From positions 1-24,586 of the IMG/VR virus record IMGVR_UViG_3300025280_000159: a stretch of DNA of 24,586 nt; one strand, written 5' to 3'. A program made the translations under genes and the position numbers. Positions 8,912 through 22,042 of the stretch are shown in pieces. A model generated the notes under the pieces. It ran no database searches, was not told the origin of the DNA, and was given only the letters and a program-made list of their open reading frames with translations. How positions within the stretch are numbered: the stretch's first letter is position 1; each line of letters starts with the position of its first letter. The DNA comes from a virus.

Positions 8912-10716
8912 TAACCTTATCAGAAAGATTCTCAAATGATATACAGGGAAAAGATACTTATTTAATTCCACTTGTTATTATTGATAATAGGTTTTATTTA
9001 TCTACAAACAAATTAACCCTAGAAAATCATTATGATCCACTTGTTAAAAGCATAGGTAACATCAAAGAATCTATAGATACAACTAGCAAGAAATTTAAAA
9101 TATCTAGTGTTTCTATCAAGTTCTTTAATTTTGAATATAATGGAGAAAGGATTACAGATAGACTATTTGAACAATCTGTAATGAACTCAAGGGTAGATAT
9201 ATATTATAAATCTCCATCATGTGAATCTTTGGAAGATTGTATGAAATTATATTCAGGATATATTAGAGATATAAAAGAAAATGCAGATTTATTAAGTATA
9301 GAAATTGAAGATGTAACAGAAACCTCTCTACATAAAAAAGTTCCTTATAGATATACACCATCAGAAGGGTTGCCTGAAAAACATCAGAACAAACTTATTC
9401 CTATGGTTTATGGTTTTGTAGATAAATCTCCTCTTGTATATTCTCCTTATCCATTGCCTGATGGCTTTGGTGATAACAAATTTATATTAGATTCAGATGA
9501 TTTAGATATAAAATCAATAGATGTTCTACAAATATTCACAAATGATGTTTATTTGAATGTAAAAAGAGATGCAGATCTTCTGATCGCAGAAATTGTAGAT
9601 ACATTATATCAAGGATTGCTAGAAAATCAATGGATAGAAACTAATAATCAGATAATAATTGATAAAACAGTAAGCACAGACTGGAGTTCAGAAGCAACAG
9701 TAGATTATGGTGTTGGAACTCCACTTACACATGGATTTGCAGAAATAGAACAGACTTCTGATGTAAAATATGTGGGAGGGGTACATAAAATAAACTATGA
9801 TAGTAGTGGGGAGATAAAAACAAATATTATGGCTTTTCAAGATTCTGAGGGTACAATAGAATCAGATGGAAACACTGATGGATTGTATTTAATGATTAAA
9901 CAATTTGGGAATGAACATGAGTTAGACTTTGGTATTCCATCATGGGTTTGGGGAGATCCTTCAAATATTTACCTTCTTCCTATTGAGGTTGATGGAGAGG
10001 TGGTGTTGGTATATTATGGAGAGAGTTTTATGACTTTTGAAATTAATTCTTCTTTAGCATCAGATTCTGATTTATTAAAAGGGTTGGTTGAAAATGTAGA
10101 GGGTGATATAAAAGAAATAAAGGGGATAATTAAGCTAAATTATGATTTTGAGGCATTTGCAAAAGACAATCCAACTGCCAATGAGCCAACATATCCTATT
10201 TTGTTTTTTTCACAAGTAGGATTGGGGTTTGGAATGCCATTATTTCCTGAATGGGATTCTCAAGGACTACTTGATTATGAAACAATAAGCAAATCAGGGG
10301 ATACATCTTTTCCAGTTAAAGATATTACAAGCAACAAGTTTTCAATAGGAGATAGTGCTGCTCTTCAGGCTGCCATTTCCAATCTTATAGATATTTTCTT
10401 TGATTGGTTTGGAGCACCTCCTAGCGATTTTCAATTTGATTCACAAGCACTTATGGATTGGTTTAAAATAAACCATCTAAATGTAACAAGAACAGCAATA
10501 TTAAAAGATTTTAATAAGTATGATTTATATGCTTCTGTAGATGGTAGAGTAGATGATATAAATGGAACATATACTGGACAGGGAACAACTGTACTTGGTG
10601 GAGAAGTAGGAACTCAACAAAGGCAAGAAATTGCTATAAGCAGACCTCAATCACCAAGACCAGTAAAACAAGTTAAGCAAGTTAAAAAGAAAACAGATAA
10701 AGGGAGTGCATACTAG
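8908..10716 (+). CDS. Tail tip / distal tail protein, 602 aa
   Basis: It begins inside the tape measure stop (ATGA overlap) and ends in a TAG that shares its last base with the GTG of the next gene. The first 150 residues hold alternating strands with LYSGYIRDIKENADLLSIEI, then VPYRYTPSEGLPEKHQNKLI and PMVYGFVDKSPL. This arrangement is usual for minor tail proteins that form the ring or upper hub at the tail tip. The middle region is beta-rich without a known motif. The C-terminus is a basic Pro/Lys/Gln tail (PRPVKQVKQVKKK). Placement directly after the tape measure supports a tip role. A precise lambda equivalent (gpM, gpL) cannot be assigned from the sequence alone. Confidence 0.65.
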   Translation: MITLSERFSNDIQGKDTYLIPLVIIDNRFYLSTNKLTLENHYDPLVKSIGNIKESIDTTSKKFKISSVSIKFFNFEYNGERITDRLFEQSVMNSRVDIYYKSPSCESLEDCMKLYSGYIRDIKENADLLSIEIEDVTETSLHKKVPYRYTPSEGLPEKHQNKLIPMVYGFVDKSPLVYSPYPLPDGFGDNKFILDSDDLDIKSIDVLQIFTNDVYLNVKRDADLLIAEIVDTLYQGLLENQWIETNNQIIIDKTVSTDWSSEATVDYGVGTPLTHGFAEIEQTSDVKYVGGVHKINYDSSGEIKTNIMAFQDSEGTIESDGNTDGLYLMIKQFGNEHELDFGIPSWVWGDPSNIYLLPIEVDGEVVLVYYGESFMTFEINSSLASDSDLLKGLVENVEGDIKEIKGIIKLNYDFEAFAKDNPTANEPTYPILFFSQVGLGFGMPLFPEWDSQGLLDYETISKSGDTSFPVKDITSNKFSIGDSAALQAAISNLIDIFFDWFGAPPSDFQFDSQALMDWFKINHLNVTRTAILKDFNKYDLYASVDGRVDDINGTYTGQGTTVLGGEVGTQQRQEIAISRPQSPRPVKQVKQVKKKTDKGSAY

Positions 10717-13223
10717 TGGCTCTTATATATGAATTAGCACACCCTCTATTAATAGATGATACTCAGATTACTTTTAGAATAAAAGATCATTTAGATGCTG
10801 ATTTAACTACAACTGAAGATGGATTAAAACTTGTTAATGCTTTCACTTATATGAACTCAGCAGATTTTACTAATGACACTAACAATGTTGGAACAATATT
10901 AACAATTAGAAACTTTGCATGGACATTAGGACATGGATATGAGGCTGGTGGATTTGATTATAGTGGATATTTTCAAGCATTAGATGGTCTATCAGGTAAT
11001 TCCCACACCTATAATCAAGGCACTCTTGGTGTTTCTGAACCATATATATCAACTACATTACCTGCATATAGGTTTCTACATGGGGCTGATATTGCTAGCA
11101 ATGGTGCTAGTGATTCAACATTTTGGGGAGATGTTGCTGGATATTCATATAGTTCTCCTGAATCAATAGTTTGGGAGGCTGGAAATGAAAATTATAGCGT
11201 ATTAATAACTTTTAATCTTCCTACAAGTGGATCACATTGGGAATCTGATTATGTAAGGTGCAAACACATGGATACTCTGTGGGATAGCAACGCTCTTGTT
11301 GCTGGGTTTGATGTAACTATGGGAGATGCTCCTTTTGTTGAGCAAATTCCAACTGAGGCTTGGATTAATTGGGTTAATATTAATAAAGTTGATTTTTATG
11401 GATATGAGGGTTGCATTGGTGCAATTTTTTCTATTCTTGAGATTGATGCAAGTAGTAATCCTACAGAACTAATAAAAATATACCCAACATCTGAAGTTCC
11501 TGAAATTGCTGATTCTTTCACTTCTCAAGTGACTTCCCTTCAGCCTTATGTGTGGGGAGCAAATCCTCCTAATTATATACCAATAGAAGAAGCAACTACA
11601 TATAATTTTGGGTTATCTATAACAGATATAAATATTCCTACTTCAGTTGTTGAGAATGAAACAGTAGAGTGCAGTTTTAAGATTAATTCTGTAGATTTTA
11701 ATGGACAAGTTAATACTACAATATTTGGCATTTCTTTTCAGAATAATTTAGGAGAAGAAGTAATAGTTAATTATGGAACTATTCAATGGGAAGGGGGAGA
11801 TGATACAACCCAATCTTATGATATAACAGCAGGTGGGCAAATACAAGCAAATTTCACATATACAGCAAATGATGTTGCAACACAACAAACAGATAGTTTT
11901 TATATATTTTCTCAAATGATTACACTTGATGCGAGTGCTTATGGTGATGATAGTGATGATGCTCAAAGTCAGTTTAATCAACTCGTGGAAGAAGAGGGAG
12001 ATATATTTGAAGGGGGACAGCTTGGAACATTTGCTGATACTCCATATATTCAAGTTCTAGATGAAGGACAAGATCCTGATGATGTGGAAATACCTAGCGA
12101 ATTTGCTATTGTTAAACCTTCAGATATTATTTATCACTTAGCAAAGACAGAGCTTGGATATGATAAAGATATAGATCCCAATTCTATCGATGAATCTAGA
12201 GCCAATCATGATGATGGTTGGGATTTAGGATTCTGTATAAATAAAGAAATAGATAGCAAGAAATTAATACAAGAAATATCTCAATCAAGCAAATCATTCC
12301 CAACCTTTTCAAATGATAGATTAAAATTCATTACTATAAAAAGCACTTATGATGGAACTGAAGATATAAATACTATTAAAAGTGCTGAAGTTATTAAATA
12401 TAATTTTTCAAGAACTAAGATAGAAGATGTTAAAACTCAGATTGAAGTTAAGCATAAATATGATTATGGATTAAAGAATCATATAGAAACTACTGGTGAA
12501 ATAAAGATTAATGAACATTATGTAGTGAATAATGCTTATTGGCTCACAGGAACTTATGGTGATTTGTTGGGAGGAAATCTTATATTGAATAATTATTATG
12601 GAATTAAAAGAACTGATACTGCAATAGATCATATAGATACATTCTTAACAGTTGAAAATGATTATATAAGAGAGTCAGGCTTGGCTGAGAGGTTTGCTAG
12701 ATATTTATTATACTGGCACATGAATCAGCACAATATTGTTGAACTCACATTACCTTTAAAGTATTTTGCTCTAGAGATTGGAGATTTAATTGAGTTTGAT
12801 GATATGATATTAGGCAAAAAAGTATATGGGGAAAATTATTCAAGAACTGGAGTTGATTTTGATATGCCTTTTAGATGTGGTCAATATATCTTGCCTTTGT
12901 TTATGGTTACAGAAACTAGCAAAAGCATAAAAGATATTAAAATTAAAGCCATACAGCTACATAACATGACTACTGGAGAATTAAATTATAAAGGGGAGGT
13001 ATATCCATCAATAGATGAATCAGATGTAAATCCACAAGATTTTCCTACTGATATTCCTGAAGATGAAGAAATAATTGTTTATCCTGAAGGGGATTTGAAT
13101 CAAGATGGTATTGTAAATGTGTTAGATGCTATACTCTTAATTCAGATAATATTATATGGTGACCAAGAAGGTGGAAATTCAAATGATTTAATTGATTCCT
13201 TAGATGATATGTTAGATGAATAA
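10716..13223 (+). CDS. Tail hub / host-recognition protein with C-terminal dockerin-like repeat, 835 aa
   Basis: The GTG start overlaps the previous stop by one base and is served by GGGAG upstream. Residues 1-470 are Gly/Asn/Ser/Thr-rich and beta-like. From about 470 the protein contains SDIIYHLAKTELGYD, then DDGWDLGFCINKEIDSKKL and DRLKFITIK, an order reminiscent of the hub domain in gpJ-like central tail proteins. Then comes a strand-rich region to about 765. The last 60 residues are acidic, and residues about 791-812 contain DLNQDGIVNVLDAILL. This has Asp/Asn at calcium-loop positions 1, 3, 5, 9 and 12 plus the following hydrophobic helix, a single dockerin type I repeat. Hub function is inferred from position and the partial pattern. 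Confidence 0.65.
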   Translation: MALIYELAHPLLIDDTQITFRIKDHLDADLTTTEDGLKLVNAFTYMNSADFTNDTNNVGTILTIRNFAWTLGHGYEAGGFDYSGYFQALDGLSGNSHTYNQGTLGVSEPYISTTLPAYRFLHGADIASNGASDSTFWGDVAGYSYSSPESIVWEAGNENYSVLITFNLPTSGSHWESDYVRCKHMDTLWDSNALVAGFDVTMGDAPFVEQIPTEAWINWVNINKVDFYGYEGCIGAIFSILEIDASSNPTELIKIYPTSEVPEIADSFTSQVTSLQPYVWGANPPNYIPIEEATTYNFGLSITDINIPTSVVENETVECSFKINSVDFNGQVNTTIFGISFQNNLGEEVIVNYGTIQWEGGDDTTQSYDITAGGQIQANFTYTANDVATQQTDSFYIFSQMITLDASAYGDDSDDAQSQFNQLVEEEGDIFEGGQLGTFADTPYIQVLDEGQDPDDVEIPSEFAIVKPSDIIYHLAKTELGYDKDIDPNSIDESRANHDDGWDLGFCINKEIDSKKLIQEISQSSKSFPTFSNDRLKFITIKSTYDGTEDINTIKSAEVIKYNFSRTKIEDVKTQIEVKHKYDYGLKNHIETTGEIKINEHYVVNNAYWLTGTYGDLLGGNLILNNYYGIKRTDTAIDHIDTFLTVENDYIRESGLAERFARYLLYWHMNQHNIVELTLPLKYFALEIGDLIEFDDMILGKKVYGENYSRTGVDFDMPFRCGQYILPLFMVTETSKSIKDIKIKAIQLHNMTTGELNYKGEVYPSIDESDVNPQDFPTDIPEDEEIIVYPEGDLNQDGIVNVLDAILLIQIILYGDQEGGNSNDLIDSLDDMLDE

Positions 13224-18881: not shown

Positions 18882-19700
18882 ATGAGCAAACGTTTTATTG
18901 ATACATCAATATGGGGTAAGAGATGGTTTAGGGAGTTCCCACCAAAAATGAAGTTATTTTATTTCTATTTATTAACTAATTGTGATCATGCAGGAATGTA
19001 TGATGTTGATTTAGAATTAGCTGAGTTTCAAATAGGAATGCCTGTTAAACAAGAAGATGTGGACAAGTATTTAAAAGACCACATTGAGGTAATAAAAGAT
19101 GATAAGTGGTTTTTAAGAAAGTTTGTTGATTTTCAGTATGGTATATTAAACCAAAATGTAAAAGCACATGCTAGTGTTATGAAAATATTAGATAAATATA
19201 ACTGTTTAGAAACTGTTTCAAACAGTTTAAATACTGTATCTAGTACAGTTCAAGATAAGGACAAAGATATAAACATAGATAAGGTTAAGGATAAGGAGAA
19301 AGATATGAATCCAGCATTATTAAAAGTAAGTGAAAAACAAAAAAAGACAATAGGTTATAGAAGAACTATATTTTTAAGAAAGGTAAGTGAGTTTGCAGAA
19401 GAATATGATAAAGAGATGAGAATTGATTTTGCTGATTATTGGACAGAATCAGGTGGTAATAAAATGAGATTTGAGAAGGAAAAAGTGTTTGATGTTTCTA
19501 AGAGGTTAGCAAGGTGGAGTAAAAATAACTTCAATAAGAAAGATGAAACTGGTAAGTTTAAGTTAGATGCTACAGGAAATTCTTACATAGGATATTGTAG
19601 CAAATGTAGAGTATCAGATTTTTTCAATAAATGGGAATTACAAAACCTTGATAGTAGATGTTGTAAAGTAAAGATAATTCCAGTTAGAGAGGATAAATGA
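18882..19700 (+). CDS. Replication organiser / DnaD-like initiation protein, 272 aa
   Basis: AAAGGAGATT precedes ATG 18882. Residues 1-100 begin MSKRFIDTSIWGKRWFREFP and LFYFYLLTNCDHAGMYDVDL. This is the winged-helix opening of phage replisome-organiser proteins that bind the origin and load helicase. A charged linker at about 123-141 (DKDKDINIDKVKDKEKD) follows, then a helical region from about 150. The C-terminal 40 residues hold YCSKCRV and DSRCCKV, four Cys that could form a zinc ribbon. Its stop overlaps the next gene as ATGA. No helicase or polymerase gene is in the window, so those would come from the host or from outside the window. No iteron array is evident. Confidence 0.7.
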   Translation: MSKRFIDTSIWGKRWFREFPPKMKLFYFYLLTNCDHAGMYDVDLELAEFQIGMPVKQEDVDKYLKDHIEVIKDDKWFLRKFVDFQYGILNQNVKAHASVMKILDKYNCLETVSNSLNTVSSTVQDKDKDINIDKVKDKEKDMNPALLKVSEKQKKTIGYRRTIFLRKVSEFAEEYDKEMRIDFADYWTESGGNKMRFEKEKVFDVSKRLARWSKNNFNKKDETGKFKLDATGNSYIGYCSKCRVSDFFNKWELQNLDSRCCKVKIIPVREDK

Positions 19701-20518
19701 AATCAGGCTGGAAAGCAGCACAAGGAAATGAAGATGCAGATCTAAAGATTATATCTCTAGGAATGGGGGTACAATCTACTGCTGTATATTTAATGAGTTC
19801 TATGGAATACAAATTGCCCAGAGCAGATTATGCTGTCTTTGCTGATCCACAAGCAGAACACCCTAAAACTTATAAATTATTAGAATGGTTGCTTGATTGG
19901 AAAAAGAAAAATAATGGGATAGAGATCATAGTAAATAAAGAGGAGAATTTATATACAGATATTAAAAGTGCATATAAAAACAATACTAGAGTGGTTTCTA
20001 TTCCTGCACATACACATAAAAATGGAATAGTAAGAAGGCAATGCACAGAAACTTATAAGATAAATCCTGTTATAAAAAGTGTTAGAAAATTACATGGATT
20101 AAAGCCTAGAAAAAGAATGAAACCAACAGAACTTTGGCTAGGAATATCTACTGATGAGATTCAAAGAATGAAAGAATGTTGGAAATATAATATAGATTAT
20201 TTTTATCCATTGATTTATCACAATATGAGTAGGGCAGATTGTATGAATTTTTTTAGAGAGAATAATTTTCCAATTCCTGTAAAATCTAGTTGTGTGTTTT
20301 GTCCATTCCACTCTGATAAGTTTTGGAGATCTTTAAAAATAGAAAATGGGAGTGCTTGGAAGATGTCTGTAGAAATAGATAAAATTATAAGACAACACCC
20401 TAAAATGAAACAAAGACAATATCTTTCAAGACATTGTAAACCTTTGGATCAGATAGATTTTCAAGAGAATCAGACAGATTTGTTTGTAGAAGAATGTGAA
20501 GGCTATTGTGGTCTTTAG
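19697..20518 (+). CDS. PAPS-reductase-like / adenine nucleotide alpha-hydrolase protein, 273 aa
   Basis: ATG overlaps the previous TGA. The N-terminal nucleotide loop is SLGMGVQSTA (20-29), in place of the SGGKDS of classical N-type ATP pyrophosphatases. Next come ADPQAEHPKTY (49-59), RRQCTETYK (113-121) and LWLGISTDEIQRMKE (146-160), then SSCVFCPFHSDKFW (197-210). The last residues add C267-x3-C271. Family enzymes activate substrates with ATP or carry out sulphur chemistry: CysH, and DndC/SspD in DNA phosphorothioation. The paired Cys suggest a metal or Fe-S cluster. No sulphate-assimilation genes are nearby; instead a Mom-like DNA modification gene follows, so a role in nucleotide or DNA modification is inferred. 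Confidence 0.75.
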   Translation: MKSGWKAAQGNEDADLKIISLGMGVQSTAVYLMSSMEYKLPRADYAVFADPQAEHPKTYKLLEWLLDWKKKNNGIEIIVNKEENLYTDIKSAYKNNTRVVSIPAHTHKNGIVRRQCTETYKINPVIKSVRKLHGLKPRKRMKPTELWLGISTDEIQRMKECWKYNIDYFYPLIYHNMSRADCMNFFRENNFPIPVKSSCVFCPFHSDKFWRSLKIENGSAWKMSVEIDKIIRQHPKMKQRQYLSRHCKPLDQIDFQENQTDLFVEECEGYCGL

Positions 20519-20519
20519 A

Positions 20520-20593
20520 AATTGAGGGGAGTGTCCTTAACCTTTCAAATCCCTACACTCTCATAGGGTTTGATCTCCATGCTCCCCTCAGTT
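20520..20593 (+). promoter_or_regulatory. Long stem-loop closing over the zinc-ribbon start codon
   Basis: Bases 20520-20534 pair with 20579-20593 over 15 positions without a gap (three G-U), with the core TGAGGGGAG / CTCCCCTCA. Inside, CCCTA (20551-20555) and TAGGG (20564-20568) form a second hairpin with an 8-base loop. The stem starts one base after the stop of the PAPS-reductase-like gene, and its 3' arm contains the ATG at 20579. It would hide that start unless opened. A T-run is absent, so termination is unlikely. Confidence 0.55.
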
Positions 20594-20746
20594 AAATGTA
20601 ATAAATGTGGAGAAAATAAATCTCAAGATAAGTTCTATAAAGTTTCAGGATATGTAATCAGGACCTGTCATAAATGCTATATAGAAATAAGAAAGAAAAG
20701 GAGCAAGGAAATTGCTAGAAGAAAAAAGGAAGCTAAATGGTTTTGA
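20579..20746 (+). CDS. Mini zinc-ribbon protein, 55 aa
   Basis: ATG 20579 reads to a TGA at 20744-20746, overlapping the Mom-like gene by 10 bases. The peptide has VKCNKCGENKSQDKFY and later RTCHKCYIEIRKKR: C7-x2-C10 and C30-x2-C33 with 19 residues between, a four-Cys zinc ribbon. A strongly basic helix (RKKRSKEIARRKKEAK) follows. This arrangement is widespread in phages as a short DNA-binding protein, often beside HNH or DNA modification genes. There is no strong ribosome site; AGGG at 20565-20568 is 10 bases before the ATG but lies in the inner hairpin. DNA or RNA binding in support of the modification genes is inferred. Confidence 0.65.
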   Translation: MLPSVKCNKCGENKSQDKFYKVSGYVIRTCHKCYIEIRKKRSKEIARRKKEAKWF

Positions 20747-21681
20747 GTGAAAGATACAAAGTAGAATCTATAAAATCTCAAGAAACCTATGACTGGTTAT
20801 TACATAAACATTATGCTAAAAGAATACCATCTATTTCTTATTCTTTTGGGTTATTCAAAAATAAAATATTAGAGGGTGTATGTACTTTTGGTATGCCACC
20901 AAGTCCAAATTTATGTGAAAGTATAGCAGGGGAAAAATATAAAGATAAAGCTATAGAATTAAACAGGCTATGTGTTAATGAAGGTTTGCCTAAAAATTGT
21001 CTATCTTTTTTTGTTAGCAAAGCACTTAAAATAATAAAAGATTATGACATTGTTATTAGTTTTAGTGATATAAATATGGATCACAATGGGTATATATATC
21101 AGGCTTGTAATTTTTTATATACAGGAAAAACAAGCAATAGAAAACAATTAATAGATAAACATGGTAATGAATTTCATTTTAGAAATGTAGGACACATTCA
21201 GAAAAAGTTAAATGGTAACAAAAATACAAAGCATAGAAAAAGAAGATTAAATGAGGATAGTTTAGATAGGCAGGTTATTGCTAATTATTTAAGAGATAAT
21301 AAAGGGGAATATACTGCAAGTCAGTTAGATAAAATTTTTGGGTATAAAGATACTACTGCACATTGGTTTAGATTAGATAAGGGCTTTAGTTTTCCAACTG
21401 TAGACGATTGGATTAAATTAAAAGAAATATTAAAGTTTGATAATAGCTTAGATGATATTATGATAAACTATGAGTGGTTTCCTGATAGAAAAGACATAAT
21501 AAAACAACTTGAATTAAAAGAGGTAGATATAAACCCTAAGCACAGATATTTATTTATAAAAGGTAAATACAAAAATAGAATATTAGATAGCTTAAATTAT
21601 GAAATTAAGCCATATCCTAAAGGCAAGAATAAAAGATATGATGCAAGTTATAAGCCTGTAATACAAGGGAAATTATTTTAA
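20737..21681 (+). CDS. Mom-like DNA modification enzyme fused to a methylase-associated domain, 314 aa
   Basis: The ATG lies inside the end of the zinc-ribbon gene. Residues 1-150 match the Mom pattern: HKHYAKRIPSISYSFGLF (23-40), EGVCTFGMPPSP (46-57), IELNRLCV (73-80), then VISFSDINMDHNGYIYQACN and FLYTG (106-130). Mom of phage Mu is a GNAT-fold enzyme that converts adenines to a carbamoylmethyl form and so resists restriction. Residues about 176-250 (SQLDKIFGYKDTTAHWF, FPTVDDWIKLKEILKF) form a separate domain with an HWF motif that I recall from C-terminal parts of phage DNA methyltransferases, presumably for target binding. The last 60 residues are basic. The usual Mu Mom is shorter. Substrate and product are not proven by the sequence. 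Confidence 0.75.
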   Translation: MVLSERYKVESIKSQETYDWLLHKHYAKRIPSISYSFGLFKNKILEGVCTFGMPPSPNLCESIAGEKYKDKAIELNRLCVNEGLPKNCLSFFVSKALKIIKDYDIVISFSDINMDHNGYIYQACNFLYTGKTSNRKQLIDKHGNEFHFRNVGHIQKKLNGNKNTKHRKRRLNEDSLDRQVIANYLRDNKGEYTASQLDKIFGYKDTTAHWFRLDKGFSFPTVDDWIKLKEILKFDNSLDDIMINYEWFPDRKDIIKQLELKEVDINPKHRYLFIKGKYKNRILDSLNYEIKPYPKGKNKRYDASYKPVIQGKLF

Positions 21682-21682
21682 A

Positions 21683-22042
21683 ATGAATAACTTAGAAACT
21701 ATAACAATAGACCATAAAGTCTTTTCAAGAAATGCTATAGATAAGATGCACTGGGCAGAGAAAGGAAGATTGAAAGGGCAGTACAGGATCTTAATTAGGA
21801 ATCAGATGAGGTTGAATAAGATAAAAGCAACTGAAGATAAGTGTGTAATAAAGATAGAATGTCATGTTAAAAGATTAATGGACACAGATAATATGTGGGG
21901 TGGCTTAAAACAATTTATAGATGCTTTATGTACAGAAAACTTTATTTATGATGATAGCACTACATGGTTAAATATTAAAGAAATTAGACAGATCAAAGCA
22001 AAGGAATCCAAAATAGTTGTAGAAAGAATGGTGTGTTCTTGA
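21683..22042 (+). CDS. rusA: RusA-like Holliday junction resolvase, 119 aa
   Basis: ATG 21683 begins one base after the stop of the Mom-like gene. The RusA pattern is present: RLMDTDNMWGGLKQFIDALC with D67, D69-N70, K76 and D80, then NFIYDDS with D90 and D91. In RusA the Asp residues bind Mg2+ and cut four-way junctions. The length is typical (about 120). The gene stands between the modification genes and the terminase genes, so it likely debranches concatemers before packaging, a role fulfilled by RusA-type enzymes in other phages. The N-terminal TITIDHKVFSRNAIDKMHW fits the first strand and helix of the fold. Confidence 0.8.
   Translation: MNNLETITIDHKVFSRNAIDKMHWAEKGRLKGQYRILIRNQMRLNKIKATEDKCVIKIECHVKRLMDTDNMWGGLKQFIDALCTENFIYDDSTTWLNIKEIRQIKAKESKIVVERMVCS

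Follow-up and report, generated by a model that had tools for sequence, protein, structure and literature searches.

The window analysed here, a 24.6-kb IMG/VR virus record whose source is called the window phage below, encodes a Mom-type DNA-modification protein that carries a methyltransferase-type insert, and the novelty of the locus lies inside this member of a known enzyme family. The HTH-like core of the insert is, by sequence comparison, homologous to the C-terminal module of phage DNA methyltransferases. We consider it probable that the locus combines an autonomous Mom adenine modification, to which a putative target-recognition module has been added, with a PP-loop gene that is independent of it. 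Mom is one of the few enzymes that add a large group to adenine, thereby blocking very many restriction enzymes; how it selects its adenines is, to our knowledge, little understood.

Three co-directional genes upstream of a RusA-like resolvase gene

Genes for the PP-loop protein, the zinc ribbon and Mom follow one another in a tight co-directional array (Table 1), in which the ATG of the PP-loop gene overlaps the stop of the gene upstream and the zinc-ribbon gene overlaps the Mom start by 10 nt. The initial annotation had described three adjacent or overlapping genes, and an open reading frame check found them at these positions. Its assignments of the individual products were also borne out. 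The first protein has an ATP-pyrophosphatase fold with conserved cysteines, as judged from its match to PHROG 424 ('phosphoadenosine phosphosulfate reductase', E 4.5e-38), from Foldseek comparisons and from four invariant cysteines. The second, of 55-58 aa, is a mini zinc ribbon with four cysteines, for which tblastn gave no match in cultured phages, and the third is a Mom-like GNAT protein that matches the Mom profile PF25680 at 9.8e-35 (120.5 bits against a curated cut-off of 27.1) and PHROG 1384 at 2e-58. A RusA-like resolvase gene follows 3' of the trio.

The product of the gene upstream of the array is a putative replication protein; its sole match is to a family of unknown function, and the label is plausible. 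A relative of this protein is also encoded directly 5' of the PP-loop gene in the related locus L064. The rest of the window-phage genome is found on a second contig (30.4 kb) with structural- and lysis-type genes by appearance, and inspection of that contig recognised no sulphate-assimilation gene. An Rfam search of the window gave no match. Elsewhere in the window, at 10716-13223, a phage tail-type protein ends in a dockerin-like repeat of ~36 aa (PF00404, 4e-4, just below the cut-off); a homologue with two dockerin-like repeats by eye adjoins the PP-loop gene of L054.

Table 1 Features of the Mom locus and its neighbours in the window
Feature	Positions	Strand	Basis or remark
Putative replication protein (context)	18882..19700	+	phrog_19415, unknown function
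PP-loop ATP-pyrophosphatase, 'PAPS-reductase-like'	19697..20518	+	273 aa, PHROG 424
RNA hairpin, PP-loop stop to zinc-ribbon gene	20520..20593	+	covers ribbon ATG (20579)
4-Cys mini zinc ribbon	20570 (TTG) or likelier 20579 (ATG)..20746	+	CxxC-x19-CxxC
Mom-type GNAT DNA-modification protein	20737..21681	+	314 aa; Pfam, PHROG, model
Insert in Mom, residues ~172-266, HTH-like core ~174-243	21250..21534	+	alignment, profile, model
Conserved Mom C-terminal strands/tail (KHRY...YPKG), 3' of insert	21535..21681	+	alignment, model
RusA-like resolvase (context)	21683..22042	+	PHROG 4e-7

The Mom protein contains an insert shared with phage DNA methyltransferases

An AlphaFold2 model of the Mom protein, built with 18 relatives (pLDDT 85), superposes on Mu Mom 8bv8, the inactive S124A mutant, over 194 residues (Z 19.4, 2.7 Å). 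The position of Mu Ser124 aligns with Ser90, a residue matched by hand in the sequence alignment and invariant in the alignments. The window Mom thus resembles the Mu protein as a GNAT-type Mom in its conserved core, its catalytic-serine position and its tail, but differs from it by an HTH-like insert of ~95 aa. Aligned with cultured-phage Moms, the window protein shows the insert immediately ahead of the conserved KHRY tail, and in the model the GNAT strands resume past the helical insert, up to residue ~276-295. The insert is absent from the aligned Moms of JeffCo, Riggi, E21, PM87, LP65, A511 and SfMu. In JeffCo, Riggi, A511, LP65 and E21, core and tail are ~40-50% identical to those of the window Mom, whereas the insert is lacking and the records are without a PP-loop gene of the window family.

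A profile of the insert matched parts of phage DNA methyltransferases (6.5e-11 to 4e-8), and the PADLOC MTase_II profile matched residues 153-242 of Mom (1.3e-6). The HTH-like module is held in common with DNA methyltransferases such as those of Bacillus phage CM1 and Pelagibacter phage HTVC134P, in which it is a part of the methyltransferase, whereas in the window it is inserted in a GNAT fold. When the insert region was compared with 50,697 cultured-phage records by tblastn, two methyltransferases and the tail of the JeffCo Mom were recovered, and no Mom with the insert. Neither a Pfam search with the insert alone nor a PDB sequence search (3bs3, E 0.8) gave anything significant, and Pfam HTH_3 was found in just one insert homologue, weakly (E 0.008). 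The model shows the insert as helical with an HTH-like pattern; when the complete Mom model was used for a structure search, only GNAT folds were returned, such a whole-chain query being uninformative on an HTH in the insert. Extra domains on Mom have been described in jumbo phages, where Mom is fused to endonuclease domains (PMC7824862); these fusions share with the window Mom the addition of a domain to Mom, but the added part there has a restriction endonuclease fold, while here it is an HTH-like insert common to methyltransferases.

Insert size classes and tandem Mom genes

Among the Mom proteins of the loci compared, the distance from core to tail falls into sharp classes of 5-46, 106-112 and 219-223 aa, with 106 short, 61 one-module and 8 two-module members, counts in which some contigs are present twice. 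Two-module Moms have an additional stretch that resembles YunG (PF24585, 3.6e-5). These inserts of 219-223 aa, found in L035, L036 and L183-L188, consist of the HTH-like module and a YunG-like domain; in the latter, motifs with Cys, His and Asp (GHCYVASE, ENSTHWFL, IIDLT) are conserved. Some phages have more than one Mom gene: two tandem, in most cases overlapping Mom genes with differing variable regions were seen in L022, L157, L167 and L190, and three in L173:4908-7125 and L239:3401-5618. L164 is also among the marine phage contigs with tandem Mom paralogues, and a divergent Mom-like paralogue (core profile 3e-15) lies at L038:2309-3226, 5' of RusA and a normal Mom.

We infer that the insert contacts DNA, and the pattern of size classes and tandem genes fits exchangeable specificity modules. 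That the insert is purely structural, serving for example in dimerisation without any target selection, appears unlikely to us. The function of the insert is deduced here from comparison, and we did not find the homologous methyltransferase module characterised either, which leaves room for such a role; the homology to modules of DNA methyltransferases, the helical HTH-like pattern and the tandem Moms with differing inserts within one phage, however, argue against it.

PP-loop and Mom genes are mostly found apart

According to the initial annotation, the three genes would form one route, with the PP-loop protein as the activator of a precursor, the zinc ribbon as the DNA-targeting factor and Mom as the enzyme that puts a novel group on adenine. 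The tight co-directional arrangement is in keeping with such a route, as is the fold of the window PP-loop protein, which is that of sulphur-transfer PP-loop enzymes. Co-occurrence across related phages had been proposed as the check, and there the genes were found mostly apart. Among close Mom relatives, searched as whole records, a PHROG 424 gene was missing in 35 of 35 other than the window-phage contigs, these records being fragments in which absence is no proof of absence. A wider Mom set comprised 115 non-redundant clusters at 90% identity, window phage included. The window PP-loop family lay near Mom in three of them, namely in the window phage, in L193, where the protein is 67% identical to that of the window and its gene lies 0.9 kb 3' of Mom, and in L211 (55% identical). 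Other, distant PP-loop proteins were encoded near Mom in eight more of the 115, at ~0.6 to 2.5 kb. In all, PP-loop genes of several types were located within ~2.5 kb of Mom in ten clusters beyond the window phage, which corrected the impression from a first Mom scan that PP-loop genes are never near other Moms. Because of these ten clusters, with L193 and L211 of the same family as the window, a loose tie between PP-loop and Mom is conceivable, and they also count in favour of the common route.

As a matched control, we used related-phage loci anchored on the upstream HNH gene of the window, a small set of 16 clusters. A PP-loop gene was present in three of these and Mom in three, the two together solely in the window phage. 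Set against this control (3/16), the 3/115 near Mom represents no enrichment, and Fisher and hypergeometric figures gave no sign of attraction between the genes. The reverse search gave a similar picture: none of 79 viral records with PP-loop relatives contained a Mom above the family cut-off (one match was sub-threshold), and among nine cultured-phage records with the PP-loop gene, Mom was missing in eight. The ninth, Pelagibacter phage HTVC034P, has PP-loop and Mom ~4.8 kb apart even with the linear record circularised, and its Mom adjoins the terminase. Both genes are also present in Psychrobacter phage vB_PmaS_Y8A, as ORF4 and ORF69 (PMC10434257). A PP-loop gene of the window family was found in none of 11 diverse Mom phages (SfMu, Mu-type, and ten others), and our literature search found neither a Mom/PP-loop pair described as a system nor a Mom with such an insert.

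Since the genes are mostly apart in more than 100 related viruses, we do not see the trio as one new pathway, and a route running through all three proteins is very improbable. We likewise regard it as highly unlikely that the PP-loop protein supplies an activated group, for example one bearing sulphur or an amide, which Mom would attach to adenines chosen by the insert to give an undescribed DNA base. From their co-occurrence across records, PP-loop and Mom look like separate tenants of one variable slot that divides the replication genes from the packaging genes. Gene orders at this slot include Rep, PP-loop, small ORF, DNA methyltransferase and terminase in L064, and RusA, probable methyltransferase, Mom, TerS and TerL in L039.

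The PP-loop protein is probably independent of Mom

The PP-loop model was closest to LarE[4Fe-4S], TilS, CysH and NcsA in Foldseek, with TtuA also among the fold matches, and a relative in the PDB is PptA (21fy, E 3e-4). Its SxGxxS-type loop reads SLGMGVQST, in which S20, G22, G24 and Q26 are invariant, and Cys116, Cys199, Cys202 and Cys271 recur without exception in 41 PP-loop relatives. A Pfam search of the window protein gave nothing at E<=1, PAPS reductase (PF01507) included; the relative in HTVC034P passes PF01507 (28.3 versus 22.5 bits). Phage members of PHROG 424, as in Geobacillus phage PK5.1, Thermus phage P23-77 and Pelagibacter phage HTVC034P, share with the window protein both the PP-loop fold and the cysteine pattern RRQC...CxxCPFH...CxGxCG. 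The protein is likely to bind Fe-S or a metal through these conserved cysteines, and the model makes a sulphur-transfer or adenylating activity plausible.

Such an activity could, separately from Mom, be a DNA phosphorothioation-like or other base-thiolating one of the SspD/DndC kind, which we consider doubtful. The protein has a distant PADLOC match to SspD (1.2e-8) and is like SspD/DndC, CysH and LarE at fold level, the matches to LarE, NcsA, TtuA and CysH being in line with thiolation. Moreover, in one large marine cluster (L089, L091, L094, L099, L101, L103, L105, L108, L114, L118 and L119) a C5 cytosine methyltransferase gene overlaps or abuts the start of the PP-loop gene, and methyltransferases lie within 3 kb in several others. 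This adjacency, however, comes mostly from one clade: methyltransferase motif matches around PP-loop genes numbered 23 near versus 2 far, and because one 20-member cluster dominates these counts, we set the enrichment aside as evidence of function. Unlike in the SspD/DndC and CysH systems, neither sulphate-assimilation nor Ssp/Dnd partners are nearby in the window; a scan of 14 other, non-structural window proteins found no SspA/B/C, DndDE or other Dnd partner, and no cysteine desulphurase was recognised, host partners being conceivable. We read the PP-loop protein as probably independent of Mom.

The zinc ribbon in comparison with Mu Com

The initial annotation had the zinc ribbon target DNA, a view we do not share: Mu Com, an RNA-binding protein, is the better comparison for it, and the insert in Mom is the better candidate for DNA targeting. 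In Mu, Com is a small 4-Cys zinc protein encoded just 5' of mom that binds mRNA and activates mom translation (PMC6483171). The window pair could work in the same way, with the ribbon binding mRNA and opening Mom translation, and with the hairpin at 20520-20593 or a small one at ~20702-20716 as the control element; we put this forward tentatively. Size, four cysteines, position directly 5' of Mom and overlap are like those of Mu com-mom, from which the window differs by a PP-loop gene 5' of the pair. In five of the 106 testable Mom clusters, against 0.95 expected, a zinc-ribbon ORF runs up to the Mom start and ends there; with the window phage left out, four clusters remain (P ~0.016), so that the enrichment is suggestive only. 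The hairpin that covers the zinc-ribbon start is strong (-30.6 kcal/mol, z -3.7, none of 200 shuffles as good) and, among the loci compared, confined to window-phage contigs; a role in translation control is possible.

Several observations speak against such a pair. The Com profile PF10122 gave no match at E<=10 in the window, nor any in relatives, and the nearest profiles, themselves weak matches (2e-4), are zinc ribbons of HNH/EndoVII proteins. The fold of the RNA around the Mom start is not unusual (z -0.3), although the strong hairpin lies upstream, at the zinc-ribbon start. The overlap of 10 nt compares with 80 nt in SfMu com-mom, which has the Mu layout. Most Mom relatives are without such an ORF. 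At L038:840-1064, a 4-Cys ribbon with a pattern like that of the window is found 5' of Rep, away from Mom.

Discussion

The locus is best explained not by one three-enzyme pathway but by a third gene that would encode a self-sufficient Mom. As members of its family do, this Mom would modify adenines in phage DNA at N6 with a small acyl-type group, carbamoylmethyl-type in the Mom family, with a host metabolite as the source, and host restriction enzymes would then be unable to cut. The HTH-like module, borrowed from or common to DNA methyltransferases, sits after the GNAT core and ahead of the last strands; its most likely role would be to read or hold DNA and thereby to alter which adenines are modified. 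The zinc-ribbon gene would either act on Mom production in the manner of Mu Com or be an unrelated small zinc protein, and the PP-loop gene, widespread in phages and independent of the others, would have been acquired in the same variable slot, which has replication genes on one side and packaging genes on the other.

The co-occurrence result strikes off a weakly founded 'new pathway' for the trio. Moms with zero, one or two modules, together with the phages that carry them in tandem, offer a direct route to testing modular specificity in this family.
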